Below are positions 27,298 to 44,062 of a stretch of 51,684 bases of DNA, one piece after another. Position numbers and translations under genes: made by a program. The notes beneath the pieces are model-generated. The model worked only from the letters and a program-made list of their open reading frames with translations. It ran no database searches and was not told where the DNA came from. Position 1 is the first letter of the stretch. Each line of letters opens with the position of its first letter. This DNA is from a virus, in IMG/VR virus record IMGVR_UViG_3300042288_001152, positions 1 through 51,684 of that record; one strand, given 5' to 3'.

Positions 27298-27373
27298 TGT
27301 GATGGACCTCACAAAAGTTTTTTGACGACACGCCCGAGAAACGGGCATAAATGTCAGTCCCCCCTGCTATGCT
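27298..27373 (+). promoter_or_regulatory. CRP-like site plus TGTCAG-N10-TATGCT promoter
   Basis: TGTGATGGACCTCACA (27298-27313) is a perfect TGTGA-N6-TCACA palindrome. Its centre is 62.5 bp before the -10 box TATGCT (27368). TGTCAG is at 27352-27357. CGACACGCC, the complement of the recurrent GGCGTGTCG element, is at 27326-27334. This is the first promoter of the plus-strand block. Confidence 0.7.
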
Positions 27374-27409
27374 TAAGGTATAACAAAAACAAACGAAAGG
27401 GGTCACACA

Positions 27410-27565
27410 ATGACTCAACTAACCGAAACACTATTTAGCACTATCGTGCACGATTTCCACAATGGTGGCGTAAAGTCATCTTATGGATTAGATGCGTACA
27501 CACGCAAGGAAATCCTTGCCTACCTTATCCGCTCTAAGGGTTGCGAGTGCATCAACTGTCTGTGA
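27410..27565 (+). CDS. 51-residue protein
   Basis: ATG 27410 follows AACGAAAGG. It has a helical LTETLFSTIVHDF region and a C-terminal CECINC cysteine cluster, possibly metal-binding. The stop codon overlaps the next CRP-like site. The function is unknown. Confidence 0.6.
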   Translation: MTQLTETLFSTIVHDFHNGGVKSSYGLDAYTRKEILAYLIRSKGCECINCL

Positions 27566-27625
27566 GGTAAATCACACGACACACCCTAGCAACCTCCCCA
27601 ATTTGTCAGCCCCATACGCTACAAT
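27561..27625 (+). promoter_or_regulatory. CRP-like site plus TGTCAG-N10-TACAAT promoter
   Basis: TGTGAGGTAAATCACA (27561-27576) is centred 51.5 bp before TACAAT (27620). TGTCAG is at 27604-27609. The operator overlaps the end of the preceding gene. Confidence 0.7.
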
Positions 27626-27657
27626 TACAACATAACAACAACGAAAGGTCAGAATAA

Positions 27658-27750
27658 ATGACACTAGATGAATACAAGGCGCTAGTAGAAGCGCAACGCA
27701 AGGAAAGCCTTGCACAAGCCCTATCCGCACTAACAAAAGAGGTTAAATAA
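27658..27750 (+). CDS. 30-residue protein
   Basis: ATG 27658 lies after ACGAAAGG. It is a short amphipathic helix (MTLDEYKALVEAQRKESLAQ start). Its stop overlaps the next start as TAATG. The function is unknown. Confidence 0.55.
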   Translation: MTLDEYKALVEAQRKESLAQALSALTKEVK

Positions 27751-27932
27751 TGTCATACGCATACTCATACCAAACCAATAGCGTGTCTAAGTGGGATACT
27801 ATCCAAGAGGATGTCGCAGACCAATACACTTACCTTGATGAGGTAGATGAGGAACAACCTCCACTAGATGAATTCTATGATGAAGATTCTGAACAACTAG
27901 CACAACTATTCGCACTAACATGGGAGAACTAA
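27750..27932 (+). CDS. Acidic 60-residue protein
   Basis: It is coupled to the previous gene by TAATG. It is strongly acidic (DEVDEEQPPLDEFYDEDSEQ) with aromatic residues, a composition seen in DNA-mimic and inhibitor proteins of phages, though no specific family is recognised. Confidence 0.6.
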   Translation: MSYAYSYQTNSVSKWDTIQEDVADQYTYLDEVDEEQPPLDEFYDEDSEQLAQLFALTWEN

Positions 27933-27934
27933 CA

Positions 27935-28084
27935 ATGACTATCACTTACTCACTATGGGACGGGGCACAATTCCTCGGTTTCTTTACCGCTACTAGCGCA
28001 GATGAAATGCTAAAGGTAGTAAGCGACTTACAAAAAGTTTCTAAAAATGTAGTAGCACATATGCGAAAGGTAGAACAGAACTAA
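27935..28084 (+). CDS. 49-residue protein
   Basis: It begins MTITYSLWDGAQFLGFFTAT, a small beta then helix layout. ATG 27935 is 2 nt after the previous stop, and the next gene overlaps by TAATG. The function is unknown. Confidence 0.58.
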   Translation: MTITYSLWDGAQFLGFFTATSADEMLKVVSDLQKVSKNVVAHMRKVEQN

Positions 28085-28275
28085 TGACAATAGAACTAGA
28101 TGACTACGGCTTAATGATTGACCTAGGTGATTTTCTCTATGTATCTCTATCATGGGCGTTTATTATTTTGACCGCCGTTATTCTTGTCGGTGCTAAGGTA
28201 TACAATAAGATAAAGAGTAATAAGCAAGTAGCCCCTATCGGCTTTAACAATGATGATGATTGGATGACTAAATGA
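28084..28275 (+). CDS. Small membrane protein
   Basis: The protein has 63 residues. One membrane helix (VSLSWAFIILTAVILVGAKV) lies between an acidic N-terminus and a basic then acidic tail, predicting the N-terminus outside. It is coupled to both neighbours. Confidence 0.6.
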   Translation: MTIELDDYGLMIDLGDFLYVSLSWAFIILTAVILVGAKVYNKIKSNKQVAPIGFNNDDDWMTK

Positions 28276-28394
28276 ATCGCTTACTAACTACACTAGTGCA
28301 ACTATCTATCGCTATCCCCGCCCTATACATGATGAGGATCGTGTACCATGATTTCAAGGCAGAGATGCGAGAGATGTGGCAAGAATCACACTAG
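28272..28394 (+). CDS. Small membrane protein
   Basis: The protein has 40 residues and starts at an ATGA overlap. It has one hydrophobic helix (LVQLSIAIPALYMM) and a charged C-terminus. It is the last gene before a large regulatory cassette. Confidence 0.52.
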   Translation: MNRLLTTLVQLSIAIPALYMMRIVYHDFKAEMREMWQESH

Positions 28395-28400
28395 GGTAAC

Positions 28401-28580
28401 GGCGTGTCGCCTTGACAAAGGCGTCAGCTGCCCCTATCTTTTGTGGGGGGTTATCCACAGGTTAAGAAGGTCTGTGGAAAACCCCTGAAATTTTGTGAGA
28501 TTTATCACATAGGCTGAGCGTCTCACATCTTGGAATTACTCGCTAGTAAGTAGCCAAATGTCAGCCCCTTAGTGTAAAAT
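28401..28580 (+). promoter_or_regulatory. Full regulatory cassette: GGCGTGTCG, DnaA boxes, CRP-like site, TGTCAG promoter
   Basis: In order: GGCGTGTCG (28401) plus TTGACA; DnaA box TTATCCACA (28451-28459) with an inverted near-copy TGTGGAAAA (28472); TGTGAGATTTATCACA (28494-28509) centred 73.5 bp before the -10; TGTCAG (28559) and TAAAAT (28575-28580). The 219-bp gap has no gene. Confidence 0.7.
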
Positions 28581-28613
28581 TCCTACTATAACAACAACGA
28601 AAGGGGTCATACC

Positions 28614-28793
28614 TTGACCATACTAATCTCATCAGAGGTTTTAGAGAATAGAGAATTATCTAACTCTAATCCATACATGTATCAAAAAGCAAAAACTTAT
28701 TTGCTATCATGCACAATTTGTGCGAATAACTATTTAGAAATTTTTGCAAAAGATGCAGACTTTACTAAATTTACTTGTGAGGAGTGCTGGTAA
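28614..28793 (+). CDS. Zinc-ribbon-like protein
   Basis: It starts at TTG 28614 after ACGAAAGG and has 59 residues. CTIC and CEEC pairs about 25 residues apart form a probable zinc ribbon at the C-terminal half. An internal ATG would remove the first third. The function is unknown. Confidence 0.58.
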   Translation: MTILISSEVLENRELSNSNPYMYQKAKTYLLSCTICANNYLEIFAKDADFTKFTCEECW

Positions 28794-28795
28794 TC

Positions 28796-28945
28796 ATGGC
28801 AGTTTATGAGTTTAATGCTTTTATAAATGTAGAGGCTGAATCCTATGATGATGCTATTGATACATTTCAATTTCAATTAAAATACGGAATAAATCAAAAT
28901 AATGTTTATGTTGCCGACATAAGAGATTTGGAGTTAAGCGAATGA
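28796..28945 (+). CDS. 49-residue protein
   Basis: MAVYEFNAFINVEAESYDDA, then a QFQLKYGINQNNVYVADIR stretch, suggests a small alpha-beta fold. ATG is 2 nt after the previous stop; an ATGA overlap follows. The function is unknown. Confidence 0.58.
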   Translation: MAVYEFNAFINVEAESYDDAIDTFQFQLKYGINQNNVYVADIRDLELSE

Positions 28946-29136
28946 AATCAGATTTCGAAAAAGATTTAGAAATTAAAGAAAGTTTTATTGATTTACTAAA
29001 TGATGTTTATCCTACTGTAAAAATTGGTTATTCAACTTTTACACCCGCCGAAATTTTAGAATGTTGCGACCCAGTAGCATTTGCAATTGGTTTAGTAGAA
29101 CACGCAGATTATTTAGCAGAAATGGAAAACGAATGA
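28942..29136 (+). CDS. 64-residue protein
   Basis: The protein is acidic, starting MKSDFEKDLEIKESFIDLLN, with a TPAEILECCDPVAFAIGLVE segment of the type seen in small actinophage proteins of unknown role. It is coupled on both sides by ATGA. Confidence 0.6.
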   Translation: MKSDFEKDLEIKESFIDLLNDVYPTVKIGYSTFTPAEILECCDPVAFAIGLVEHADYLAEMENE

Positions 29137-29231
29137 GCGACTTATTTGGATTTGAAAAAGCAATTCAGCTCGATCATCTTAGCGATGAACAAATAAATCA
29201 ATTAGAGGAAATTCTAAAAGATTATCAATAG
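29133..29231 (+). CDS. 32-residue acidic peptide
   Basis: MSDLFGFEKAIQLDHLSDEQ, then a helix ending KDYQ. It starts at an ATGA overlap and is the last gene before the next cassette. The function is unknown. Confidence 0.52.
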   Translation: MSDLFGFEKAIQLDHLSDEQINQLEEILKDYQ

Positions 29232-29236
29232 ATAGC

Positions 29237-29474
29237 GGCGTGTCGCCTTGACAAACAGGGCGGCACCCCCACATATGCACGGGGTCGGGCGTGTCGTTAT
29301 GAAGATGTTATAAAATCCCCCGAAATTTACGGCGTGTCGATTTGACAGGGTTATCCACAGATCTCGGGCGTGTCGTCCACAGGCTAAATGTGATTACTAT
29401 CACACGGCTTGAGCGTCTCATTATTTGGATTTACTGGCTAGTAATTATCTTTTGTCAGTGCTATCCGCTATAAT
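29237..29474 (+). promoter_or_regulatory. Full regulatory cassette with four GGCGTGTCG copies
   Basis: GGCGTGTCG occurs at 29237, 29288, 29331 and 29367; TTGACA follows the first and third. A DnaA box TTATCCACA lies at 29351-29359. TGTGATTACTATCACA (29389-29404) is centred 72.5 bp before TATAAT (29469). TGTCAG is at 29453. The segment GGCTTGAGCGTCTCA to GCTAGTAA duplicates the one at about 28512-28550. No gene is seen in this 274-bp gap. Confidence 0.7.
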
Positions 29475-29505
29475 TGCTACTATCAACAAACGAAAGGCGG
29501 ACTCC

Positions 29506-29718
29506 ATGTCAGCAAATGTCTACACAATCGAAAGCCTACTTGTAGGAAAAATGTATCGCTCAAATTCTCTTACTGGAGAAATTATCTCAGCAGAAAAAAA
29601 TGATAGTGTCTGGTATGCAAATGCAGATACTTACAAAGTGCAGGTACGCCCAATTTATTCTGCACCGCTAAATCTAAAAGATACTTACCGCTATTTAGCC
29701 GTAAAAACTTCCGATTAA
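29506..29718 (+). CDS. 70-residue beta-rich protein
   Basis: The start is ATG 29506 after CGAAAGG; an upstream in-frame start would run through the promoter. MSANVYTIESLLVGKMYRSN, then KNDSVWYANADTYKVQVRP, suggests a small beta barrel. The function is unknown. Confidence 0.65.
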   Translation: MSANVYTIESLLVGKMYRSNSLTGEIISAEKNDSVWYANADTYKVQVRPIYSAPLNLKDTYRYLAVKTSD

Positions 29719-29743
29719 ATAAAATCGAAACAGGGGCAGTTTA

Positions 29744-29792
29744 GAGAGTGTTCTCGCCCAATGTCGTAAGTAAGAACTCTCACCAATTTTTT
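29744..29792 (+). terminator. Probable terminator or attenuator
   Basis: An imperfect stem (GAGAGTGTTCT with AGAACTCTC) is followed by ACCAATTTTTT, then directly by ACGAAAGG and the next gene. It may end the upstream transcript or attenuate readthrough. Confidence 0.5.
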
Positions 29793-29807
29793 AACGAAAG
29801 GAAAACT

Positions 29808-29972
29808 ATGCTAAACATAATCGACAAAACCGATTTCTATGAAATCGCAGATGAGCAACACTTTTGCTGTGATGAAAGTCAGTTTAAGTATTACTGTATC
29901 GAACACCTAGAATTTATGGGTTGCTACTTTTGCGGATTTGACTATGACAAAGATTGCGAGGAACAACACTAA
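29808..29972 (+). CDS. Cys-rich 54-residue protein
   Basis: The start is ATG 29808 after ACGAAAGG. Six cysteines (FCCDES, YYCIEH, GCYFCGF, DC) and several His suggest a compact metal-binding fold. A longer frame from 29748 would cross the terminator and is rejected. Confidence 0.6.
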   Translation: MLNIIDKTDFYEIADEQHFCCDESQFKYYCIEHLEFMGCYFCGFDYDKDCEEQH

Positions 29973-30115
29973 TGGGATACATTGAGATTTTTAGAATGGA
30001 TCAAGACGGGGCGGGTTGGGTAGATTTATCCGAAGCCACCCCCGATGAACTATTTACTATTGAGGTTGGGCTACTTAATGAGGGAGCCTTATTCACTAGC
30101 CCCGAAGCCGACTAA
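29972..30115 (+). CDS. 47-residue acidic protein
   Basis: It is coupled by TAATG. The protein begins MGYIEIFRMDQDGAGWVDLS and continues ATPDELFTIEVGLLNEGA. The function is unknown. Confidence 0.58.
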   Translation: MGYIEIFRMDQDGAGWVDLSEATPDELFTIEVGLLNEGALFTSPEAD

Positions 30116-30116
30116 A

Positions 30117-30138
30117 TGTCAGTGGGCTAGGCTATAAT
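30117..30138 (+). promoter_or_regulatory. TGTCAG-N10-TATAAT promoter
   Basis: TGTCAG begins 2 nt after the upstream stop codon, and TATAAT is at 30133-30138. There is no room for a CRP-like operator outside the preceding gene and none is seen. Confidence 0.7.
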
Positions 30139-30166
30139 AAGCAATAACAACAACGAAAGGAAAACT

Positions 30167-30292
30167 ATGATTAACTCAGTAATGACTATCGAGTGCGTGG
30201 ATTGCCACGGATACGGAATTATCTTTTTTGGTAATGATAACGACTATGATTGCGAGCCATGCGATTGCGTGGAAGAATTGGAGAACAACTAA
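30167..30292 (+). CDS. 41-residue zinc-finger protein
   Basis: CVDCHGYG and CEPCDC resemble half of a DnaJ-type zinc finger. The start follows ACGAAAGG; the stop overlaps the next gene by TAATG. Confidence 0.58.
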   Translation: MINSVMTIECVDCHGYGIIFFGNDNDYDCEPCDCVEELENN

Positions 30293-30495
30293 TGTATAAA
30301 TTAACTTGTGCTTATGACGGACACGCTCCTCATTGGTCAGCAGAATACGAAAACGAATTTGGTGCATGGGAAAACTTTTTCTTATTCACCGATTGGGGAT
30401 TTGCTAACGAATACTCAACTGTAAATATTTACACGCCAACAGGCAAATGCTATACAAAAGTTTTCTACAGAACAGGAATGGTATCAGTTAAATGA
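30292..30495 (+). CDS. 67-residue protein
   Basis: MYKLTCAYDGHAPHWSAEYE, then aromatic-rich strands (WENFFLFTDWGFANEY), suggests a small beta fold. The start is ATG 30292 within TAATG; a longer upstream frame overlaps the previous gene. Confidence 0.6.
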   Translation: MYKLTCAYDGHAPHWSAEYENEFGAWENFFLFTDWGFANEYSTVNIYTPTGKCYTKVFYRTGMVSVK

Positions 30496-30683
30496 TGACA
30501 CGAAAAGATTATGTCGCAACCGCTGAAATTCTAAAGTATGTAAGCGATAAAACTCACCCCGCTGTTTTTTCTAAAATGGTAAATGATTTTGCGGAGATGT
30601 TCGCAAAAGATAATGAGCGATTTGATGTAAAACGATTTCACGAAGCGAGTGGATACAATGTTCCAAAATTCACTTCGAGATAA
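30492..30683 (+). CDS. 63-residue protein
   Basis: It is helical, with MTRKDYVATAEILKYVSDKT and a basic C-terminus (FHEASGYNVPKFTSR). ATG 30492 overlaps the previous stop. This composition recurs in cyanophage and actinophage proteins of unknown role. Confidence 0.6.
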   Translation: MMTRKDYVATAEILKYVSDKTHPAVFSKMVNDFAEMFAKDNERFDVKRFHEASGYNVPKFTSR

Positions 30684-30789
30684 AGTAAAACGCATTCAGG
30701 AATTGCGCCGCAGTAATGCGGCGCAACCTGTTCGCAATAAAAAAAAATACACACGCAAAATAAAACATAAAAATAAATTTGACACTTAA
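30658..30789 (+). CDS. Highly basic 43-residue protein
   Basis: ATG 30658 opens a frame starting MFQNSLRDKVKRIQELRRSN and ending in a Lys/Arg tract, overlapping the previous gene by 26 nt. Roughly one residue in three is basic, suggesting nucleic-acid binding. A 10-bp hairpin (30703-30726) lies inside it, so this stretch could instead be a non-coding terminator region. Confidence 0.45.
   Translation: MFQNSLRDKVKRIQELRRSNAAQPVRNKKKYTRKIKHKNKFDT
30703..30726. repeat. Perfect 10-bp hairpin
   Basis: TTGCGCCGCA and TGCGGCGCAA are separated by GTAA. No U run follows on the plus strand. It may mark the end of the 30167-30683 transcript or stabilise its 3' end. Confidence 0.55.
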
Positions 30790-30797
30790 CGCAAAAT

Positions 30798-30900
30798 CCC
30801 GCACATAGCTGCGGGGTCGGGCGTGTCGTTAAGGACGTGATGTAAATCACCCTGGAATTTTGGGCGTGTTGTGGAAAATGTCAGTGGCCTATGGTATTAT
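30798..30900 (+). promoter_or_regulatory. Cassette: hairpin, GGCGTGTCG, near-CRP site, TGTCAG promoter
   Basis: A CCCGCA/TGCGGG hairpin is followed by GGCGTGTCG (30820) and a variant (30863). CGTGATGTAAATCACC (30836-30851), one change per half-site from TGTGA-N6-TCACA, is centred 51.5 bp before TATTAT (30895). TGTCAG is at 30879. Confidence 0.6.
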
Positions 30901-30929
30901 TCTCTTAAATCAAACGAAAGGCTCATCCC

Positions 30930-31040
30930 ATGGATTTTTATGATGACTACTATGAAACAGATATGATACGCCCTGACGCTAAGTCATGCTATTGTACTAA
31001 CCATTCTATTTGTACTAATTGCACTAAGGGGTATAACTAA
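30930..31040 (+). CDS. Cys-rich 36-residue peptide
   Basis: CYCTNHSICTNC contains four cysteines and one His within 12 residues after an acidic N-terminus. It is coupled to the GP88-like gene by TAATG and may be its metal-binding partner (inference). Confidence 0.55.
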   Translation: MDFYDDYYETDMIRPDAKSCYCTNHSICTNCTKGYN

Positions 31041-31762
31041 TGACTAAACTAAAAAGATCTAATGATAGAAAGGTGGCTAACCTTGTCACAAAAAATGGAA
31101 AGCAAGCCGCAATTGCGAACACGTTCGGGCTCCCTGCAGGAAAGAATTATTCATGCCCTGGTGCCACTAGTATTTGTGAGAGTGTTTGCTACGCAGGAAA
31201 ACTCGAAAAGGTATTCCCAAGCGTTAAAGTAAATCTATTGCATAACTGGGAATTACTAAAAGACGCAGACGGTGAAACTATGGTGCGTCTACTTAATGAA
31301 ATGATAATTGACTTCAAGGCTGATTGTGTAAAGAAAGACGCACCTATGCTATTCCGTATCCACTGGGACGGAGACTTCTTCAATGATACTTATGCATATG
31401 CATGGAAAATAGTTATTGATAAGCATGAGGATGTTCAATTCTGGGTTTATACTCGTGTAAAGTCTGCGGCGCTTATTCTTAAGGATGTATCTAATCTATC
31501 GCTATACTATTCAACGGATGATGATAATAAAGAAATCGCATTCGACTTAAAAACTAATTCAAAAATCCGCCTTGCTTATCTTGGTAAGACATTCGCTGCA
31601 ACCGAAGACACAATGAAAGAATTGACTGGTAAGCCTGGTGCTAAGTGTCCTGAGAATATGAAGAGTATTCCACTTATCTCTAGCAATGGGTCCGCCTGCG
31701 TATCTTGTGGTCTATGCGTATATGGTAAAGCGGATATTAGATTTTCTGCGAGTAAAAAATAA
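31040..31762 (+). CDS. GP88-like phage protein
   Basis: The protein has 240 residues. FGLPAGKNYSCPGATSICES, then CYAG, followed later by KCPEN and CVSCGLCVYG, matches the phage gene product 88 family. It has Cys clusters at both ends that could hold an Fe-S cluster or zinc. An alpha/beta core (RIHWDGDFFNDTYAYAW, VYTRVKSAALIL) lies between. The biochemical function is unestablished. It lies in the early small-gene block. Confidence 0.8.
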   Translation: MTKLKRSNDRKVANLVTKNGKQAAIANTFGLPAGKNYSCPGATSICESVCYAGKLEKVFPSVKVNLLHNWELLKDADGETMVRLLNEMIIDFKADCVKKDAPMLFRIHWDGDFFNDTYAYAWKIVIDKHEDVQFWVYTRVKSAALILKDVSNLSLYYSTDDDNKEIAFDLKTNSKIRLAYLGKTFAATEDTMKELTGKPGAKCPENMKSIPLISSNGSACVSCGLCVYGKADIRFSASKK

Positions 31763-31857
31763 TGTATGAGGTTATTGGTATGATTGGCGGATCTATGGTA
31801 ATTCTTATATCGCTCCTGCCAATTTTATTAGCTGCATATGTAATATCTAAATTGTAA
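31762..31857 (+). CDS. 31-residue membrane peptide
   Basis: It is coupled by TAATG to the GP88 gene. A single hydrophobic helix (MVILISLLPILLAAYVI) makes up most of it. The function is unknown. Confidence 0.5.
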   Translation: MYEVIGMIGGSMVILISLLPILLAAYVISKL

Positions 31858-31858
31858 C

Positions 31859-32013
31859 AGCGTGTCGGCTTGACAATGTCAAGCTGGCCCGCAATGTTGC
31901 GGGGTTATCCACAGGTTTAAGGGGCTTATCCACAAGCCCCTGGAATTATGTGAGATTTATCACAAGGCTCATGCGTAAATAGATTAGGTAATGTCAGTGG
32001 GCTATGTTATAAT
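31859..32013 (+). promoter_or_regulatory. Full regulatory cassette with two DnaA boxes
   Basis: AGCGTGTCG plus TTGACA; a CCCGCA/TGCGGG hairpin; TTATCCACA at 31905 and again at 31926, 21 bp apart; TGTGAGATTTATCACA (31949-31964) centred 51.5 bp before TATAAT (32008); TGTCAG at 31992. It is the clearest example of the cassette. Confidence 0.75.
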
Positions 32014-32041
32014 TCTCTTATCCAACAACGAAAGGCAATAA

Positions 32042-32245
32042 ATGAAAATAGAACACAACCTAAAGTTTGTAACTGAGTTTGCAGACGGACACCCAATAAC
32101 TGCACGGGTAATGGCACTTGATGAGTCAATGCGTACTGAAATGCTTGAAGGTATGCTAAAGGATTTAGTAGGCTCTCGCTTGCAACCAATTCTTGATGAA
32201 ATAAATGCCAATGGCTCATACGCAATTCTAAAGGTTGCTGAATAA
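32042..32245 (+). CDS. 67-residue protein
   Basis: It begins MKIEHNLKFVTEFADGHPIT and has a helical MRTEMLEGMLKDLVGSRLQ region. The start follows ACGAAAGG; the stop overlaps the next ATG. The function is unknown. Confidence 0.62.
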   Translation: MKIEHNLKFVTEFADGHPITARVMALDESMRTEMLEGMLKDLVGSRLQPILDEINANGSYAILKVAE

Positions 32246-32514
32246 TGGGAAGTGTAACAGCACTAGGTATTCAGGACAGTGTGTTAGATTTAGAAACACA
32301 ATTAGCCTATCACTTACAGGGTAATCACTATCCACCCGTTCCACTATCTATGGTACCAGTATGTATTCAGGCAATAGATTTTGCTTATGATGAAATGTGG
32401 GATGAAACTATTGAAATGCCTGATGGTATTTCTTATAAGGGTGAAACATGTGCGCCAGTATGGGCGATCATCGAGGCTCACCACTTACACTTTTGGCTAC
32501 CTGAAAGTGACTAA
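32245..32514 (+). CDS. 89-residue protein
   Basis: It begins MGSVTALGIQDSVLDLETQL and has a LSMVPVCIQAIDFAYDEMWD helix and a His-rich C-terminus (EAHHLHFW). It is coupled by TAATG. The function is unknown. Confidence 0.62.
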   Translation: MGSVTALGIQDSVLDLETQLAYHLQGNHYPPVPLSMVPVCIQAIDFAYDEMWDETIEMPDGISYKGETCAPVWAIIEAHHLHFWLPESD

Positions 32515-32559
32515 GGTCACACAATAACTTTCTCAAATAATGAGATGGGGGTTGATAAA

Positions 32560-32581
32560 TGTCAGCCCCCAATGCTACAAT
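32560..32581 (+). promoter_or_regulatory. TGTCAG-N10-TACAAT promoter
   Basis: TGTCAG at 32560 and TACAAT at 32576-32581, with no CRP-like operator within 100 bp. The gene downstream has a variant AAAGAGG ribosome site. Confidence 0.65.
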
Positions 32582-32609
32582 ACTACCCTACAAAGAAAAG
32601 AGGCAATAA

Positions 32610-32792
32610 ATGACAATACAAGATAAGTTGTATCAGGTTGGAGATTTATTCACTACCCTAAAGTCAAAAAAGACGGGCGTGATTAAAGAAATCCACCCAC
32701 AAGCATCTGGCTCGGTGCGTGTGCTACTAGAAATGCCAACAAAGGAAACTCGCTGGACAACAGTATCAGCAAGCACCCTAGCAGGTAATTAG
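32610..32792 (+). CDS. 60-residue SH3-like protein
   Basis: YQVGDLFTTLKSKKTGVIKE, then SVRVLLEMPTKETRWTTVSA, suggests a small beta barrel (SH3/KOW type). It is monocistronic between two TGTCAG promoters. The function is unknown. Confidence 0.6.
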   Translation: MTIQDKLYQVGDLFTTLKSKKTGVIKEIHPQASGSVRVLLEMPTKETRWTTVSASTLAGN

Positions 32793-32816
32793 CATAGGGC
32801 AGGGGGGTCGCAGAAA

Positions 32817-32838
32817 TGTCAGACCCTCCTGCTATACT
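32817..32838 (+). promoter_or_regulatory. TGTCAG-N10-TATACT promoter
   Basis: TGTCAG at 32817 and TATACT at 32833-32838. A leader with AACGAAAGAGAG precedes ATG 32878. Confidence 0.65.
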
Positions 32839-32877
32839 ACTCTAACAAACAACCAACCAACGAAAGAGAGAAAATAA

Positions 32878-33300
32878 ATGGCACGACAGAAAGCAATTAG
32901 CGTAAAGATAGCAACACCAAAGGTAATCAAGGCACTAGAAACTCGCTTGACAAAGTTAAATGCCGATTACGCATCACAAGAAGCCAACGAAGCAAAGCAC
33001 GAAAAGGCTTTAGAAAAGTGGCGCAAAGAAGTAGGAAAGTTCGCTATGGCTAATTTTGCTAAGGCAGAAAACTTCCGCACAAACTATCGCTCATGGAATA
33101 AGACACTTAATGTTGATTTCGATTTAACAGTTAATGAGTCAGACTTTCCTAAAGAGCCTGAGAAGGACTACGAAGTTCTCCACCGCCACTCATACAATGA
33201 GATGAAAGAGGAATTGGAAAACGCAATTCGTATTCTAAAGATGACAGATGAGGAAACAGTAAGCACAAGCACTTACAATGCTATTGCTCGTTATCTCTAA
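32878..33300 (+). CDS. Helical/coiled-coil protein
   Basis: The protein has 140 residues. Residues 13-62 are strongly helical and basic-acidic alternating (ALETRLTKLNADYASQEANE), and a second helix lies at about 105-125. It may bind DNA or form a scaffold; no family is recognised. Confidence 0.65.
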   Translation: MARQKAISVKIATPKVIKALETRLTKLNADYASQEANEAKHEKALEKWRKEVGKFAMANFAKAENFRTNYRSWNKTLNVDFDLTVNESDFPKEPEKDYEVLHRHSYNEMKEELENAIRILKMTDEETVSTSTYNAIARYL

Positions 33301-33371
33301 ATAATCCAACGACCTGAGTATGTCGCCAAACTGCTCTCCCTTTTGGGACAACTACTAACAAAGGTAATACA

Positions 33372-33599
33372 ATGCGGTTCAAGATAGAAATGTATGACGA
33401 AGTAAAACAAAACGACTTAACAATTTATTCTGATGAAGGCTATGACAATGAAAGCCTAAAGGAATTAGTTTTCTCAAACTTAAAAAGATTTGACGGAAAT
33501 GTTAAGGCTTTTGTTTATGATCAAAAAAATAAAAAGAAAACATCAGCAGCGTTCTTTCCAATGGAAACAGTAAACTATGTAAAGTCCTTATCTAAGTGA
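33372..33599 (+). CDS. 75-residue protein
   Basis: MRFKIEMYDEVKQNDLTIYS, then an alpha/beta layout with a KNKKKTS basic loop. It lies 71 nt after the previous gene with only a weak AAAGG site. The function is unknown. Confidence 0.58.
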   Translation: MRFKIEMYDEVKQNDLTIYSDEGYDNESLKELVFSNLKRFDGNVKAFVYDQKNKKKTSAAFFPMETVNYVKSLSK

Positions 33600-33604
33600 A
33601 AGGT

Positions 33605-33774
33605 GGGGCAGCTAATTCTGCCCCGCCCAAGCTTGGCCCGCAATAATGTGCGGGGTTTTCCACAGGTTTAAGAGGGCCTGTGGATAACGCCTGGAATTTG
33701 TGAGATTACTCACATGGATCAATTCGGACATATTGTAACTAATCATAGACAATGTCAGTGGGGTCTGTTATACT
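33605..33774 (+). promoter_or_regulatory. Terminators plus full regulatory cassette
   Basis: Two hairpins, GGGGCAG/CTGCCCC (33605-33624) and CCCGCA/TGCGGG with TTTT (33637-33659), end the upstream unit. Then TTTTCCACA (33656) and an inverted DnaA box TGTGGATAA (33679-33687), TGTGAGATTACTCACA (33699-33714) centred 62.5 bp before TATACT (33769), and TGTCAG (33753). Confidence 0.72.
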
Positions 33775-33804
33775 TACAACTAACTAAACGAAAGGTAAAA
33801 ATAT

Positions 33805-34812
33805 ATGGCTCACAATCTCGAAACCGAAAACGGCGAAGTTGCTTTTGCATTGCGTGGCGCACCTGCATGGCATAATCTTGCTAATCGTATCTTCACACAA
33901 GATGAAGATGTTACTACTCAAATGATGTTAGATGAGGCAAAACTATCTAACTGGAATGTTCGTCTATCTCCATTGACCGACCACATCTCAGATACATGGA
34001 ATGATGTATCTAATGCTCAATTAGTTATTCGTGACAACCCATTCAATAGCGGAACTGATGTTCTTGCTACTGTTGGTAAGCGTTACAAGCCTGTGCAAAA
34101 TGAAGAATTGTTTGCATTCGCAGATGCAATTCATGATGCCAATGCTGATTGCCGTTGGGAATCTGCTGGCTCACTTCGTAGCGGTAAGGTTGTTTTTGGT
34201 ACTGTGGATATTCCTCGCACAATGGTGCTTGACCCACAAGGTGCAAATGATGAAACCAAGTTGTATCTAATTGTTTGGACATCACATGACGGGTCTGTTG
34301 CGGTTCAGGCTGCAGTTACCCCTGTTCGTGTAGTTTGCCAAAACACATTGAATCTTGCAATGCGTAATGCTAAGCAATCTTTCAAGATTCGTCACACGCA
34401 ATCTGTTGAAGGTCGCATTCAAGTAGCCCGCGAAACTCTTGGGCTTGCTCTTGGATACTTTGATGAATTTGAGAAAGAGGCTCAGGCTCTTTATTCTCAA
34501 TCAATTACTGATGCTGAATTCTCAAAGTTAATTCAGACAATTTATCCTAAGCCAGATAAAGATTCTGCTAAGGTTGCGCTAACTAAGTGGGAGAATAAGG
34601 TTGTCCTTCTTGACAATCTTTATCATAACTCACCAACTAACGCTAACATCAAGGGAACTAAGTGGGGTGCGTTCAATGCACTAACTGAACGCCTTGACTA
34701 TTATCGTTCAGGTCGCGGAAATTCTGAAACACTTATGGCTGGTGCATCAGGGTTTGACCCAATTCTTACCGCAGAAAAAAATAAAATTAAGAAATTAATT
34801 TCTGCGTTTTAA
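33805..34812 (+). CDS. DUF932 (TIGR03299-type) phage/plasmid-like protein
   Basis: The protein has 335 residues. AFALRGAPAWHNLANRI at the N-terminus, GTDVLATVGKRYKPVQNEEL, VTPVRVVCQNTLNLAM and the C-terminal TKWGAFNALTERLDYYRSGR are hallmarks of the DUF932 family found in phages and plasmids. The function is not established; an association with DNA metabolism has been proposed from context in other genomes. It has its own CRP-like/TGTCAG promoter, and tRNA-Asp follows 47 nt later. Confidence 0.85.
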   Translation: MAHNLETENGEVAFALRGAPAWHNLANRIFTQDEDVTTQMMLDEAKLSNWNVRLSPLTDHISDTWNDVSNAQLVIRDNPFNSGTDVLATVGKRYKPVQNEELFAFADAIHDANADCRWESAGSLRSGKVVFGTVDIPRTMVLDPQGANDETKLYLIVWTSHDGSVAVQAAVTPVRVVCQNTLNLAMRNAKQSFKIRHTQSVEGRIQVARETLGLALGYFDEFEKEAQALYSQSITDAEFSKLIQTIYPKPDKDSAKVALTKWENKVVLLDNLYHNSPTNANIKGTKWGAFNALTERLDYYRSGRGNSETLMAGASGFDPILTAEKNKIKKLISAF

Positions 34813-34859
34813 TAAATAAATTCCTGAGCATGAATAAAAACTGCTCACAATTTTTTCTA

Positions 34860-34933
34860 GGTCCATTAGCTCAGTTGGTTAGAGCGCTACCCTGTCACGG
34901 TAGAGGTCGACGGTTCAAGTCCGTTATGGATCG
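34860..34933 (+). tRNA. tRNA-Asp (anticodon GUC)
   Basis: It is a 74-nt cloverleaf: acceptor GGTCCAT/ATGGATC, D-arm GCTC/GAGC, anticodon stem CTACC/GGTAG with loop CTGTCAC (GTC), T-arm GACGG/CCGTT, discriminator G. CCA is not encoded. It lies 47 nt after DUF932 and may be cotranscribed with it. Confidence 0.92.
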
Positions 34934-35010
34934 CAAATCGCCCGCAATATTTAGGGACAAAAAAGTGTGTTAAGTGTCACATAAAAAAATCCCTGGAATC
35001 TATAGACAAA

Positions 35011-35032
35011 TGTCAGTGGGACCCTGTATAAT
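35011..35032 (+). promoter_or_regulatory. TGTCAG-N10-TATAAT promoter, leaderless
   Basis: TATAAT (35027-35032) ends seven bases before ATG 35040, so this member of the TGTCAG family makes a leaderless message. Confidence 0.65.
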
Positions 35033-35039
35033 TCTCTAC

Positions 35040-35657
35040 ATGACCAACGAACTAGTATCAAGCGTATATACATTTGTCTGTGACCCAGATGAATGCGATT
35101 CTTTAATTCAATTAACATCATCTGATGGATTTGGTTTTCCTTCAGGTGTGACAGAACTCACATGCCCTTGCGGACGTAAGACCACCTTATTGTCAGTCGA
35201 GCATGCTACAATTACACCAACAACAACGGAAGAGGTAAAAATGGAAACAACTACAGACAATCACTACATGACACGAGAATTCCTTGAGTCACAGTTAGTA
35301 GATAACAAAGCCCGCATTACACAGTTAGAAGAGCACATCCAGCGTATAACTCAGCGTGATTATGCAACTGCAGGAACTCTAAGCAAATTGCGTGATGACA
35401 TGAAGGTATTCACACTCGAAGGCCTTGATGACGAATCTCTTACAGAATTTCAAGCAGAAGAAATTGCTGGCATCTGTGGATTTGAACTAACAAATGAGTT
35501 TGAACTAGAAGTAACAGTTCTATATTCAATTACAGTTAATGCTCGTGATGAAGAGAGTGCACATAATCTAATTCATGATATTGATTTTGACACCGTGTCT
35601 TATGACTCAGACGGTATTAGTTGGCTATCATCATCTGTAGATAGAATTGAGAACTAA
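35040..35657 (+). CDS. Two-part protein: zinc ribbon fused to a helical domain, with internal promoter
   Basis: The long form has 205 residues. Residues 1-50 carry CDPDEC and CPCG, a zinc ribbon. Residues 51-67 (LLSVEHATITPTTTEEVK) are the translation of an internal TGTCAG promoter and its leader. ATG 35241 then starts a second module (coiled coil, then EFELEVTVLYSITVNARDEE) of 138 residues with its own GGAAGAGG site. It probably arose by loss of a stop between two genes, so a long and a short product can be made. Confidence 0.65.
   Translation: MTNELVSSVYTFVCDPDECDSLIQLTSSDGFGFPSGVTELTCPCGRKTTLLSVEHATITPTTTEEVKMETTTDNHYMTREFLESQLVDNKARITQLEEHIQRITQRDYATAGTLSKLRDDMKVFTLEGLDDESLTEFQAEEIAGICGFELTNEFELEVTVLYSITVNARDEESAHNLIHDIDFDTVSYDSDGISWLSSSVDRIEN
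35191..35212 (+). promoter_or_regulatory. TGTCAG-N10-TACAAT promoter inside a coding frame
   Basis: TGTCAG at 35191 and TACAAT at 35207-35212 are followed by AACGGAAGAGG and ATG 35241. It is identical in form to the intergenic promoters but is read through by the upstream frame. Confidence 0.65.
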
Positions 35658-35977
35658 TGTTAAAAGAAGGAGAAAACATTGTTTACCTTAAATTAAGAAT
35701 TCAAAATGAAATAAAAGATTTAAGTTTAAATCATCCTGAATTATTAGAAGAGTATAAGCAAGATGCAATTAAATCTATTTTTAATTCAGCTATCCTTAAA
35801 GAAACTTTGTCCGTTAAAGAGTTTAGGGATTTAGTGTCAACAGTACGACCTGATTTTTATGAGGGGTATACGATTGAAGATGCAGAAGCGGAATGGGAAT
35901 CTATAAAAACAGGCATGATTATTGTTTCTCTTTTTGTTGTGATAGTTGGCGCTCTTATACTTAAGTGGGTGTTCTAA
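35657..35977 (+). CDS. Membrane-anchored protein
   Basis: The protein has 106 residues: a soluble helical N-terminus, then a C-terminal membrane helix (TGMIIVSLFVVIVGALIL), i.e. tail-anchored. It is coupled by TAATG at both ends. The function is unknown. Confidence 0.62.
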   Translation: MLKEGENIVYLKLRIQNEIKDLSLNHPELLEEYKQDAIKSIFNSAILKETLSVKEFRDLVSTVRPDFYEGYTIEDAEAEWESIKTGMIIVSLFVVIVGALILKWVF

Positions 35978-36180
35978 TGTACTTTGAACTTACCGCTCCA
36001 TCTCGTGTAGCCTTTGCGAGGGCCATTTGGGATGCAGAAATAACTGGACTAGACCCTGAAGCAATGAGTGCATTGACATTCAACATAGGAACTGGTAGTA
36101 TTGAGAAAGTAAGTAGGATTCGTGATAAGTATAACTTAATTGAATCTTATGTAAGCGACAGTAAAACTACAGGATACTAG
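35977..36180 (+). CDS. 67-residue protein
   Basis: The start is ATG 35977 within TAATG; a GTG four codons earlier is in frame. It begins MYFELTAPSRVAFARAIWDA and is helical. The function is unknown. Confidence 0.6.
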   Translation: MYFELTAPSRVAFARAIWDAEITGLDPEAMSALTFNIGTGSIEKVSRIRDKYNLIESYVSDSKTTGY

Positions 36181-36188
36181 GAGATAAA

Positions 36189-36335
36189 ATGTCAGACTAT
36201 AAAGATGGTTTTGAAGATGGGTACAAGTTTGCCCGTGAAGAAATTATAGAAAAACTATCAGAGATTGATATCGCAGATATTGATACATGGATTCTTGATC
36301 GTCTATCTGACATGATAGAAGGCGGAACGCTATGA
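36189..36335 (+). CDS. 48-residue acidic protein
   Basis: It follows AGGAGATAAA. MSDYKDGFEDGYKFAREEII is a repeated DG-[FY] helix seen in many small phage proteins. An ATGA overlap leads into the next gene. Confidence 0.6.
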   Translation: MSDYKDGFEDGYKFAREEIIEKLSEIDIADIDTWILDRLSDMIEGGTL

Positions 36336-36529
36336 ACGAATGGGTTGGGTGCGATAAGTGTAACTCAGTAGTACCTGCAATGTATTTAATTAAAATGGTT
36401 AGCGGAGAGCTTTCTTTCTGTGGACACCACTTTAATAAGTTCAAGCCTAGTCTTGACAAAATCGCTTACGAAGTGATAGAATTAAACAAAAAGGAAGAAG
36501 TACCTCAACTAGTAGAAATGGCGGAATAA
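36332..36529 (+). CDS. DUF7455-like zinc protein
   Basis: The protein has 65 residues. CDKCNSVVPAMYLIKMVSGE, then FCGHHFNK, gives a C-x2-C ... C-x-H-H set as in the DUF7455 family that is widespread in actinobacteria and their phages. This supports an actinobacterial host. The function is unknown. Confidence 0.7.
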   Translation: MNEWVGCDKCNSVVPAMYLIKMVSGELSFCGHHFNKFKPSLDKIAYEVIELNKKEEVPQLVEMAE

Positions 36530-36530
36530 A

Positions 36531-36932
36531 ATGGGAGATAGAGCAAACTTCGGATTTAAACAATCCAATGGAGAAACAATTGTGCTATACGGACACTGGG
36601 CTGGACATGGAATGTTAGAGCGCTTAGCAGATGCTGTTGAAGCAGCACGTTCTAGGTGGGGAGATGAATCATATGCTACCCGCATTGCGGTTTCGCATTT
36701 AGTTGGAGAACAATGGCAAGATACAACTGGATGGGGATTATCTGTTAATAACATCCTAGACAACGAGCACAAGATTCCTGTGATTGACTGGAATACACAA
36801 ACGTTTTCACTGCACGAAGAGGCGCCTTGGTCCGAGTCGACAGAATATAAGGTCCGTGGAATGCAAGACGAGCCCATATTCAAAATGACATTGGATTCAT
36901 TTATTAATAAGTACTCAAGGGTTAATGCATAA
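36531..36932 (+). CDS. Conserved phage protein of unknown function
   Basis: The protein has 133 residues. MGDRANFGFKQSNGETIVLY, GHWAGHGMLERLADAV and SRWGDESYATRIAVSHLVGE form a pattern I recognise from many phage hypothetical proteins. It lies one base after the previous stop and ends the operon before a strong terminator. Confidence 0.7.
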   Translation: MGDRANFGFKQSNGETIVLYGHWAGHGMLERLADAVEAARSRWGDESYATRIAVSHLVGEQWQDTTGWGLSVNNILDNEHKIPVIDWNTQTFSLHEEAPWSESTEYKVRGMQDEPIFKMTLDSFINKYSRVNA

Positions 36933-37026
36933 TTAATCTAAGGGTGCCCCTATAGTCATTAATGGCCAGGGGTTAAATAAAGCAGAGTTCTTTTACTTTC
37001 GTTGGTGAACCTCTAGCAGCCTATGT

Positions 37027-37068
37027 AAAACCCCAGTTATGGAATAAGCCCCTACAGCTGGGGTTTTT
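37027..37068 (+). terminator. Rho-independent terminator
   Basis: AAAACCCCAG pairs with CTGGGGTTTT over a 21-base loop and ends in a T run, 95 nt after the last stop. The rest of the 36933-37247 gap holds the next promoter cassette and no gene. Confidence 0.8.
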
Positions 37069-37137
37069 GCATGGCCCGCAAAAGACTAAGGGTAATATAT
37101 TTCTTTTACGGTGTCAATATGAAATCGCCTGGAATTT

Positions 37138-37220
37138 TGTGATCTTGACCACATGCATACAAAATGTGGTGTGAAACACACCCAAATAGTATTCCATTTG
37201 TCAGTGGTCCAATGTATAAT
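37138..37220 (+). promoter_or_regulatory. Near-CRP site plus TGTCAG-N10-TATAAT promoter
   Basis: TGTGATCTTGACCACA (37138-37153) has one mismatch to TGTGA-N6-TCACA. TGTCAG is at 37199 and TATAAT at 37215-37220. This site is centred 69.5 bp before the -10, slightly off the phase of the other sites. Confidence 0.6.
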
Positions 37221-37247: not shown

Positions 37248-37982
37248 ATGCCAAATTGGGTATTTAATGGATTAACAATTGAAGGTAATCCTGAGCAAGT
37301 AAAATCTTTAATCAAGCAGATGAATAAGCCATTTGTTTATTCTATTACTGCATTAGGTGATTTATCATATGATGTCAAGCAGACTAAGTATATTAATCCT
37401 ATCTTTGCTTTTCATAATATCTATAACTATAGAGATGCTGGTATTACTGATGAGGTATATCATGGACAGCCTCCTCGTTCCACCGATTTTTCTCAGGCAA
37501 TGAAGTTTGAAACCAATGACTGGTACAACTTTAATGTGCGTGAGTGGGGAACCAAGTGGGATGTTGCTGTAGCAGAGGATAATAAGTATCCTGATACAAC
37601 TATTGAAGAAGCAGAAAATGGCGAGAACTATGTAGTTCATTACAATTTTAATACTGCATGGTCACGACCTCTTGGCGCTATTGAAAAACTATCTGCACAA
37701 TACCCAACACTACTCTTTACTTTATCATATGAGGAAGAGACAGGTTGGGGTGGAGAAATGGAATTCCTCCGTGGTGAAGTTATCTCAGAATCAGAATACG
37801 ATAATATGTGCCGTGATTGTGATGCAACTGACCAAATGGAATACTGCGAGAATGACTGCGGTGAAATCTGTAGCAACTGCAACTGGCTTGGCGAGGCAGA
37901 CCTAGAGGCTGTCGCAATTTGTCAGACCCATAAGATATACTTAGACACTAAAGTACCCGAATATAGAAAGGCGGAAGCATAA
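37248..37982 (+). CDS. Api92/DUF1281-like protein
   Basis: The start is ATG 37248 after AACGAAAGG; an upstream in-frame ATG would cross the promoter. The protein has 244 residues. MPNWVFNGLTIEGNPEQVKS is the typical start of Api92-like proteins with a ferredoxin-like domain. NTAWSRPLGAIEKLSAQYPT and EEETGWGGEMEFLRGE are also diagnostic. The C-terminal 45 residues add six to seven Cys (CRDCDATDQMEYCENDCGEI), a metal-binding extension. Confidence 0.78.
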   Translation: MPNWVFNGLTIEGNPEQVKSLIKQMNKPFVYSITALGDLSYDVKQTKYINPIFAFHNIYNYRDAGITDEVYHGQPPRSTDFSQAMKFETNDWYNFNVREWGTKWDVAVAEDNKYPDTTIEEAENGENYVVHYNFNTAWSRPLGAIEKLSAQYPTLLFTLSYEEETGWGGEMEFLRGEVISESEYDNMCRDCDATDQMEYCENDCGEICSNCNWLGEADLEAVAICQTHKIYLDTKVPEYRKAEA

Positions 37983-38743: not shown

Positions 38744-38945
38744 GTCATCTTATTTCCTGGAGTATATGAAGTTACATCTAATTAGTCTTAATCAAGATTG
38801 GGAAGATTCTAAAAATAGCGTACCTTTAAATGAAGATGAATATGACCCTTCAGATGATTACTATGTAGGAGCAACTGAGGCTGTTGAACATTTATTGTCA
38901 GTGGCTACTGATATAATGAATTCTTCTAACGAAAGGTATGAATAA
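38736..38945 (+). CDS. 69-residue protein containing a downstream promoter
   Basis: It begins MTKSSYFLEYMKLHLISLNQ, then an acidic middle. The codons for LLSVATDIMNSSNERYE are also the TGTCAG-N10-TATAAT promoter and ACGAAAGG site of the next gene. The function is unknown. Confidence 0.6.
   Translation: MTKSSYFLEYMKLHLISLNQDWEDSKNSVPLNEDEYDPSDDYYVGATEAVEHLLSVATDIMNSSNERYE
38896..38917 (+). promoter_or_regulatory. TGTCAG-N10-TATAAT promoter within a CDS
   Basis: TGTCAG at 38896 and TATAAT at 38912-38917 lie inside the end of the upstream gene, followed by TAACGAAAGG and ATG 38945. All features of the intergenic family are kept. Confidence 0.68.
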
Positions 38946-41051: not shown

Positions 41052-41408
41052 TTACTTGCTATGGACTAATTGACATTCCTTGCATACATGATCTACAAAT
41101 ATCTTAGTTGACAAGGATGTATGTTCTATCTTAGTCTTGGGATTAGTTCTCTTGAATATATCTCTTAATAGTTCTATTGGTGAAGTTCTTACTTCTTCTG
41201 GTAGCCCGCCGTGTTTGTGAAGAATTTTCAATAGGATGCCTGCGATGAATATGTCATCGCTAAATGCCATCCAGGGAAATAGTATATCAAATGGGTCAAT
41301 TGGGACAGATAGGTACATAACGCACAAAACGGCTATGATCTTTATATGTCTAGGACATCTGTCAAATTGAGCTTTATATGGCTTAAATACCTCATTAAGG
41401 TTCTTCAT
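41052..41408 (-). CDS. DUF1232 (YkvA-type) membrane protein
   Basis: The protein has 118 residues. VPIDPFDILFPWMAFSDDIF is the DUF1232 signature, embedded in two membrane segments (30-45 and 55-68). The C-terminus adds a CKEC pair. Function in membranes is unknown. Its start overlaps the stop of the oxygenase gene by 4 nt. Confidence 0.72.
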   Translation of the reverse strand: MKNLNEVFKPYKAQFDRCPRHIKIIAVLCVMYLSVPIDPFDILFPWMAFSDDIFIAGILLKILHKHGGLPEEVRTSPIELLRDIFKRTNPKTKIEHTSLSTKIFVDHVCKECQLVHSK

Positions 41409-41938
41409 TGCCAGAAGCCAACTACTATGTATTTAGTTCCTGAAATGATTGGATCAGCAGAATGAGAGAACTCTGCATTGGAAGGAAATACAAATAGGCT
41501 GCTAGCTTCTGGTTTAGTAGGTGTACCTATCTTAGTAAATGTTATGGTTCCACCTTCGTAATCATCATTTATGTATAGAACAATTGATATCTGTCTTGGG
41601 AACTCATCTGTCTGGTCTGTATGCTCTTTAAAGTATTGGCCCTTTTCGTACCTAACTACATGGTATCCTTCAAGCTTGGATATAGGGATGTTATGGTCTA
41701 AAGAGTACTGTCTAACAATTGGATCTACCTTTTCTCTCAAAAGGGCAGTAAATTCGTCATCTATTCTGCCAACGTGGGCATGTCTAATGTCTTTAGAGAC
41801 TACGCCTTCGCCATATGTTTTTACTCTAGATTCAGCAACTAATGCATCAGTCCATGTATCTTCTGGTATGTGTTTCAATGCATATTCAAGGTTAATCTCT
41901 GGTATATGTGTGATTGATATCATGTCTTTAACATTCAC
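41405..41938 (-). CDS. 2OG-Fe(II) oxygenase, P4H type
   Basis: The protein has 177 residues, one of the smallest in the set. Ligands are H106-T-D108 (KEHTDQT) and H159 (FSHSADPI), with K169 in the 2OG site and YINDDYEGGTITF at 122-134. It starts at GTG 41938 after AGG; ATG five codons in is an alternative. It is compact, with almost no extensions, and intact. Confidence 0.88.
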   Translation of the reverse strand: MNVKDMISITHIPEINLEYALKHIPEDTWTDALVAESRVKTYGEGVVSKDIRHAHVGRIDDEFTALLREKVDPIVRQYSLDHNIPISKLEGYHVVRYEKGQYFKEHTDQTDEFPRQISIVLYINDDYEGGTITFTKIGTPTKPEASSLFVFPSNAEFSHSADPIISGTKYIVVGFWQ

Positions 41939-42110
41939 AATAATGCCTATCTAAGTCAGGTACTGACTTTATGGTCTCTCCCGCCGCGAATTCACTTTCT
42001 AGGCGGTCAATATACTGCTATATATCTTCTTTATCTATATCTTCAGTTAGATCTAAGTCTTTAATATCGCCAAGATCTATGTATGCTTCAAGGTTGTCTA
42101 GTATGCCCAT
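41928..42110 (-). pseudogene. Small gene interrupted by one in-frame amber codon
   Basis: ATG 42110 opens 30 codons (MGILDNLEAYIDLGDIKDLD, then EDIDKEDI) ending at TAG 42018-42020. The same frame continues for 29 more codons (QYIDRLESEFAAGE, then DLDRHYCEC) to TAA 41928. Both halves look coding and acidic. Either a nonsense mutation split one gene or the TAG is read through. It is coupled to the upstream gene by TAATG. Confidence 0.5.
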
Positions 42111-42322
42111 TATTTAAGGAACGTACCTTTCCATATAGACTTCTCTACCTGACCTGCTTCAGATAGATCCTCCGCCTTTTCAATAGGCACACAATTAGGT
42201 ACCTGCTTGCCGTTTTTATCTTTCATGCCTCTTTGGGTGTAGCCCCTCCAGCATGCCTTTTCAATGTTATCCCACTTGTCTTCGTCTTCGTTATCTGATA
42301 AGTAATCCATTGTATTGTCCAT
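42110..42322 (-). CDS. Small conserved phage protein
   Basis: The protein has 70 residues. WDNIEKACWRGYTQRGMKDK, followed by QVPNCVP, is a motif common in small cyanophage and actinophage proteins of unknown function. The ATG follows an extended -10 box by six bases. Confidence 0.68.
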   Translation of the reverse strand: MDNTMDYLSDNEDEDKWDNIEKACWRGYTQRGMKDKNGKQVPNCVPIEKAEDLSEAGQVEKSIWKGTFLK

Positions 42323-42328
42323 GTTATC

Positions 42329-42337
42329 ATTATAGCA
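42329..42337 (-). promoter_or_regulatory. Extended -10 promoter, leaderless
   Basis: TGCTATAAT on the minus strand ends six bases before ATG 42322. Confidence 0.6.
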
Positions 42338-42352
42338 TTTGTTGTCACATAG

Positions 42353-42389
42353 TGACTAGATGCTCTCTACCGCCGCACTTTTTCGCACT
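42353..42389 (-). repeat. Dispersed ~40-bp element, copy 2
   Basis: On the minus strand it begins AGTGCGAAAAAGTGCGGCGG and ends TAGTCA, matching 24648-24689 apart from small gaps. It lies after the stop of an oxygenase gene, like copy 1. Confidence 0.55.
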
Positions 42390-42403
42390 AAATGGGGCCT
42401 ATA

Positions 42404-43042: not shown

Positions 43043-43048
43043 AGTACT

Positions 43049-43054
43049 ATTATA
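43049..43054 (-). promoter_or_regulatory. -10 box, leaderless
   Basis: TATAAT on the minus strand ends six bases before ATG 43042. There is no clear -35. Confidence 0.45.
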
Positions 43055-43056
43055 CA

Positions 43057-44016: not shown

Positions 44017-44022
44017 ATATTT

Positions 44023-44051
44023 ATTATACTATTTACAGGAATAGGTGTCAA
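44023..44051 (-). promoter_or_regulatory. Perfect consensus sigma70 promoter, leaderless
   Basis: TTGACA (44046-44051), exactly 17 bp, TATAAT (44023-44028), then six bases to ATG 44016. Confidence 0.82.
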
Positions 44052-44062
44052 TACGTTTAAGA

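Follow-up and report, generated by a model that had tools for sequence, protein, structure and literature searches.

CRP/GlxR-type operators in helical phase with RecA-NDp/PafBC-type promoters in a gene block of a probable actinobacterial virus

Results

The viral record IMGVR_UViG_3300042288_001152 was analysed over positions 1 to 51,684, and this whole stretch of 51,684 nucleotides is referred to below as the window. It carries a gene block in which sites resembling the operator of the cyclic AMP (cAMP) receptor protein CRP and its relative GlxR stand at regular distances upstream of promoters marked by the hexamer TGTCAG. The block appears to consist of about 15 one-directional promoters of the host RecA-NDp type, with TGTCRG at -26, exactly 10 bp, and an extended -10 element, TGnTAnnnT. 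We consider it probable (about 0.7) from the sequence comparisons below that the host regulators PafBC and CRP jointly activate this one early-type block. The motifs and sites, their spacing, their clustering and their conservation were observed directly.

The palindrome TGTGA-N6-TCACA, which is that of the CRP/GlxR operator (GlxR, which mostly activates, has the consensus TGTGANNTANNTCACA; PMC4254451), occurs without mismatch seven times in the window, at 27298, 27561, 28494, 29389, 31949, 33699 and 35147. The first six of these had been reported in an initial annotation of the sequence and were all recovered, while the seventh had been overlooked. All seven lie within 27298-35162, each upstream of a TGTCAG promoter. 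The earlier estimate of fewer than one perfect site by chance also held, as dinucleotide shuffles of the whole window gave 0.10 expected sites and shuffles of the block alone gave 0.016; the combination of a perfect site with a TGTCAG promoter, present seven times, appeared in none of 100 shuffles. When all 5-N6-5 palindromes in the window were ranked, TGTGA came first with its seven copies and the runner-up had three. At up to two mismatches there were 24 matches against 28.9 expected. Since this is no enrichment, only perfect and near-perfect sites are meaningful, and two-mismatch matches were discarded unless conserved. Two further sites had been called near-perfect, of which the one at 37138 does have a single mismatch but the one at 30836 has two. 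A one-mismatch site at 28375 was left aside as too distant from any promoter.

The distances from site centre to -10 box that had accompanied these sites, namely 51.5 (three times), 62.5 (twice), 72.5, 73.5 and an outlying 69.5 bp, were reproduced exactly, and the sites at 35147, 34966 and 32506 add distances of 52.5, 53.5 and 62.5 bp. Expressed as gaps between operator and promoter, the 11 values in the window (38, 27, 49, 48, 27, 27, 38, 38, 29, 28 and 45) depart from uniform spacing in their helical phase with P = 0.0004, in agreement with the phasing originally proposed. The outlier is accounted for by a degenerate site at 37165-37180 that is in phase with the same promoter (37199): its orthologues carry TGTGGTGTGTATCACA at a gap of 18-19, and the window has the degenerate copy of it. 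The site at 37138, which had been assigned to this promoter, is therefore probably the wrong one, 37165 being both in phase and better kept in orthologues.

A scan of IMG/VR for the same CRP-TGTCAG arrangement returned at least 120 stretches, and 101 of 121 viral loci have proteins in common with the window. These stretches contain 740 TGTCAG promoters, within 200 bp upstream of which there are 386 perfect CRP sites; the mirrored control TCACA-N6-TGTGA gave no perfect match in the same regions. Once pairs of equal gap that were over 60% identical had been dropped, the 313 site-promoter pairs came down to 123 non-redundant ones, whose gaps peak at 18, 27-29, 37-38, 47-49 and 59-60. Because the search pattern admitted only gaps of 22-52, the peaks at 18 and 59-60 were not selected for. 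Upstream placement thus proceeds in whole-turn steps, as at class I promoters, with a Rayleigh R of 0.72 at a period of 10.35 bp (n = 114 pairs with gaps up to 65). The central T and A of the CRP sites are also biased in these relatives. When TGTCGG was counted together with TGTCAG, 469 of 796 promoters had a CRP site at a gap of 15-64, compared with 66 in an upstream control region.

Conservation in related phages had been proposed as a check, and here both sites and spacing are either kept in orthologous promoters or shifted by whole turns. The DUF932 gene (33805-34812) has TGTCRG-N10-TAnnnT upstream in 38 of its 41 usable orthologues, and in 33 of those 38 a CRP site is present, in most cases at a gap of 37-38 and otherwise at 48-50, 59-60 or 64-65. 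Ten orthologous promoters of the gp88-like gene retain the degenerate CRP site at gap 27. At orthologues of the gene at 32878-33300 the situation is reversed, with a promoter in 44 and a CRP site in just one of these (none in 43 of 44), from which we conclude that some promoters are consistently free of CRP and of the PafBC type only. No match of the block to known phages was found by megablast, and the arrangement appears to be common to a widely distributed group of viruses that infect freshwater actinobacteria.

The nature of the TGTCAG element was recognised from a survey of 395 Actinomycetes genomes for TGTCAG-N10-TAnAAT, many matches to which had the form TGTCAGTG...TAGAAT, that of the RecA-NDp promoter. 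The published consensus of this promoter is tTGTCRgtg-8 nt-TannnT (PMC5656591), and the phage promoters conform to it; its outer lower-case letters (the leading t and trailing tg) are frequent in them without being universal. Where an extended -10 element was required, the spacer in the phage loci was 10 in 472 of 478 TGTCAG and in 47 of 47 TGTCGG promoters, other one-base variants of TGTCAG being rare at that spacer. As TGTCGG lay outside our search pattern, its presence agrees independently with the R (A/G) of the published consensus. The aligned phage consensus is roughly WWTGTCAG-T-S-S-N4-TGnTAtaaT. Counted over whole phage records, TGTCRG matches, about 5-19 per genome, outnumber those of the reversed control, and most of them share a single block and a single orientation. 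By motif, R position and exact 10-bp spacing, the phage promoter matches the RecA-NDp/PafBC type described for actinobacteria. At such promoters PafB binds the -26 motif and PafC binds region 4 of sigma-A once single-stranded DNA (ssDNA) occupies their WYL domains, and PafBC activated in this way recruits the sigma-A RNA polymerase (PMC11804915).

For likely hosts we used small Actinomycetes genomes of 1.0-1.6 Mb and mostly 36-50% G+C, plausibly small low-GC genomes of the acI/Nanopelagicales type. Nearly all of 43 such genomes have neighbouring paired WYL genes resembling pafBC, that is, adjacent genes for candidate PafB and PafC proteins. CRP was found in 38 of 39 genomes. This protein aligns over its full length with M. 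tuberculosis Crp (3d0s, E = 6.8e-77); among solved structures it is closest to that Crp and to proteins of the GlxR type, the recognition helix GASRETVNK is unchanged, and a cAMP-binding domain is present. The full RecA-NDp consensus gave 38 matches against 11 for the control in 38 small genomes, where the promoter lies upstream of recA and radA, and of carD in a slightly looser form (identities of the three genes were taken from protein sequences). In the phages, no Crp-type helix-turn-helix (HTH) was detected in 19 related records and no WYL domain in 13 records including the window. The CRP-type regulator is therefore probably the host's. Candidates for a phage-encoded CRP, WYL protein, sigma factor or MotA-like activator were also considered and none was convincing, although weak matches to small HTH open reading frames (ORFs) remain. 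The proposal that the block is tied to the host cAMP regulator thus finds support in the operators, which fit CRP/GlxR, and in the lack of a CRP gene in the 19 phage records, but it had missed the PafBC input: as TGTCAG marks a promoter with a known host activator responding to DNA damage, cAMP-CRP would be a second input and not the sole one.

Discussion

We propose that infection would yield ssDNA, which in turn would activate the host PafBC heterodimer. Placed between region 4 of sigma-A and the -26 element (sigma adaptation), PafBC would bring in the host RNA polymerase. At about two thirds of the promoters a host CRP/GlxR dimer would sit farther upstream on TGTGA-N6-TCACA, on one face of the DNA since CRP positions differ by whole helical turns, and could strengthen recruitment by contacting RNA polymerase, probably through the C-terminal domain of the alpha subunit (alpha-CTD), as at class I promoters. 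Through two regulators, neither of them phage-encoded, the expression of this block of small and probably early genes may in this way be coupled to DNA damage or ssDNA and to cAMP. Binding, the sign of the CRP effect and the identity of the host are what we infer here. The block is called early because its genes are small and because, in Streptomyces relatives, the DUF932 gene is located close to the start and the record holds a second match. More tentatively, and at somewhat less than even odds, the arrangement may work as a two-input gate, PafBC reporting infection-made ssDNA or damage and the phased CRP reporting the cAMP state, so that the phage would sense both its own entry and the energy state of its host by way of the DNA-damage machinery of the host.

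The resemblance to class I CRP activation, which had also been suggested at the outset, is only partial. In the relatives, CRP centres precede the -10 hexamer by 42.5, 52.5, 62.5, 73 and 84 bp, which, if this hexamer starts at -12, corresponds to estimated positions of about -54.5, -64.5, -74.5, -85 and -96. Class I activation in E. coli depends on helical phase and has maxima at -61.5, -71.5 and about -82 (-81.5 to -82.5), activity at -64.5 being weak (PMC6301791). The whole-turn period fits class I, but the absolute register does not, as the phage sites stand about 3 bp farther upstream than is optimal in E. coli. This shift may reflect either a different presentation of the alpha-CTD by the PafBC-adapted complex or a different start site. 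Our claim is that these promoters work like class I promoters, not that they belong to class I. Besides the register, several observations weigh against joint activation by host PafBC and CRP. A half-turn class at gaps of 33-34, comprising 10 of the 123 pairs, is off phase. Of the 16 TGTCRG matches on the plus strand of the block, five lack a CRP site, and one of the 39 small genomes has no CRP match. In addition, the host is likely to be of the small freshwater actinobacterium type, an identity that was deduced from the promoter type and the actinophage relatives.

Two other explanations, both of which we regard as unlikely, deserve most attention. The first is that TGTCRG is read by a phage-encoded factor, for instance a small HTH protein resembling sigma region 4 and replacing it, as MotA does in T4, with only CRP coming from the host. 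The -26 spacing does resemble MotA-type appropriation, and six related phage records contain ORFs, 49-69 aa in length, that weakly match HTH domains like that of sigma region 4 (G010:C1:9589-9678, and similar ORFs in G006, G007, G009, G012 and G018). However, these matches are under the family cut-off and the window record has no sigma-70 match, while the motif equals the host RecA-NDp consensus down to the A/G variation and the exact spacing, and the putative hosts carry the promoter at recA, radA and carD. The second is that CRP represses or delays the phage promoters, acting as a brake set by the host state, for which there is a precedent in the pir, dam and recE promoters of E. coli phage T1, repressed by cAMP-CRP (PMC6737242). 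The sites take up several registers, whole turns apart, upstream of the core, which repression by overlap would not require, and no gap peak overlaps the -26 or -10 element. Less probable still is a reading of the palindromes as stoperators, to which a phage repressor would bind, or as elements of replication or partition that happen to resemble CRP sites. They are indeed repeated within one block and have DnaA boxes and GGCGTGTCG repeats nearby, but they have the exact GlxR consensus in phages whose searched records hold no Crp-type HTH, they keep helical phase to the -10 element, and some promoters consistently lack them in almost every orthologue. Chance, or descent from one duplicated promoter cassette, can be practically dismissed even though some neighbouring cassettes are similar (e.g. 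28494 and 31949), given seven perfect sites against 0.10 expected, the full architecture in no shuffle, gap peaks unchanged in the 123 filtered pairs, and orthologue gaps that differ by about whole turns (38 kept, or 48-50 or 59-60).

Compared with known systems, joint activation by host PafBC and CRP would draw on familiar parts. The RecA-NDp/PafBC promoters of Actinobacteria (recA P1) have a -26 element, spacing and TAnnnT -10 identical to the phage motif, but host matches occur at repair and other single genes, whereas the phage copies are clustered in one block and orientation with phased CRP sites. Class I CRP promoters (E. coli lac type) and GlxR or M. tuberculosis Crp promoters share the operator and its upstream placement in one-turn steps, but the phage core has -26 in place of -35, a register about 3 bp farther upstream and the additional half-turn class. 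In T4 middle promoters, where MotA and AsiA appropriate sigma, an activator element near -30 substitutes for the -35 box, much as here; the activator in our case is probably host PafBC instead of a phage protein, and an early-type block is served. Host CRP also acts on phage promoters in E. coli phage T1, yet there it represses a few promoters (PMC6737242), while the roughly ten phased sites in one block here suggest activation. Each part is thus known; in titles and abstracts retrieved in a non-exhaustive search for PafBC and phage, we found neither PafBC-type phage promoters nor these parts combined and put to use by phages on such a scale. Were the two-input gate true, it would define a new class of promoter, in which CRP activates a sigma-adapted -26 core in class I-like fashion, a possibility that we hold with the same reserve. 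If host PafBC and CRP do activate the block, these phages would launch their programme by means of a host response that ssDNA triggers, a protective response then switching the virus on, and loss of host crp or pafBC would be predicted to delay or block infection. The hundreds of promoters would form a natural library of evolved CRP spacing on a non-standard core promoter, making CRP geometry with a PafBC-adapted polymerase directly testable.

Organisation of the block and neighbouring features

All promoters and sites of the block described here are on the plus strand. At its upstream end a perfect CRP site at 27298-27313 precedes, at gap 38, the promoter TGTCAG-N10-TATGCT at 27352-27373, followed by perfect sites at 27561-27576 (gap 27, promoter 27604-27625), 28494-28509 (gap 49, promoter 28559-28580) and 29389-29404 (gap 48, promoter 29453-29474). 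A TGTCAG-N10-TATAAT promoter at 30117-30138 has no CRP site. The degenerate site at 30836-30851 (two mismatches, gap 27) and its promoter at 30879-30900 precede the gp88-like gene at 31040-31762 (GP88, PF17338; phrog_1392), which is on the plus strand and is kin to genes of mycobacteriophages and Streptomyces phages. Next come a perfect site at 31949-31964 (gap 27, promoter 31992-32013), a one-mismatch site at 32506-32521 (gap 38, promoter 32560-32581) and the promoter without CRP site at 32817-32838 that precedes the gene at 32878-33300. The perfect site at 33699-33714 (gap 38) and the promoter at 33753-33774 make up the conserved CRP/PafBC-type promoter upstream of the plus-strand DUF932 gene (PF06067; phrog_1221). 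Further downstream are a one-mismatch site at 34966-34981 (gap 29, promoter 35011-35032), a perfect site at 35147-35162 (gap 28, promoter 35191-35212), and the promoter at 37199-37220 with its out-of-phase one-mismatch site at 37138-37153 (gap 45) and degenerate in-phase site (gap 18). A TGTCAG-N10-TATACT match at 37920-37941 and a TGTCAG-N10-TATAAT promoter at 38896-38917 both lack a CRP site.

Other elements share this region. Perfect copies of the DnaA-box-like sequence TTATCCACA number five against 0.72 expected (28451-28459, 29351-29359, 31905-31913 and 31926-31934 on the plus strand, 33679-33687 on the minus strand), all immediately upstream of CRP/TGTCAG promoters and some inverted relative to each other. 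The repeat GGCGTGTCG, with a GTGTC/GACAC core inside, has seven exact copies in the block (27326-30871), by the same promoters. A plus-strand tRNA-Asp(gtc) gene at 34860-34934 is located within the promoter block.

Among the related viruses, several promoters with a CRP site at gap 33-34 have a second, tandem site at 59-60, about 26 bp farther up, with a TGTCCGATTT element alongside; loci holding promoters of gap 33-34 or 59-60 are L009, L020, L024, L036, L045 and L058. The architecture was absent from the Streptomyces Stanwilliamsviridae relatives (ribonucleotide reductase 65% identical), TGTCRG being at control level in three relatives. We also considered whether the arrangement had been copied from a host, but a full-architecture scan of 84,980 species gave no sign of this, its 42 matches being about what chance would give by our estimate, with the exception of one locus. 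This is a contig of 110 kb (L144, CAINGU010000031.1) that shares the promoter architecture but is part of a metagenome-assembled genome labelled as a cyanobacterium, and it is probably a misbinned phage. Finally, the minus strand of the window carries a cluster of redox and oxygenase genes at 41405-48234, which includes three 2-oxoglutarate-Fe(II) oxygenases and genes for JmjC-like, glutathione peroxidase, AhpC/TSA and carboxymuconolactone decarboxylase proteins.

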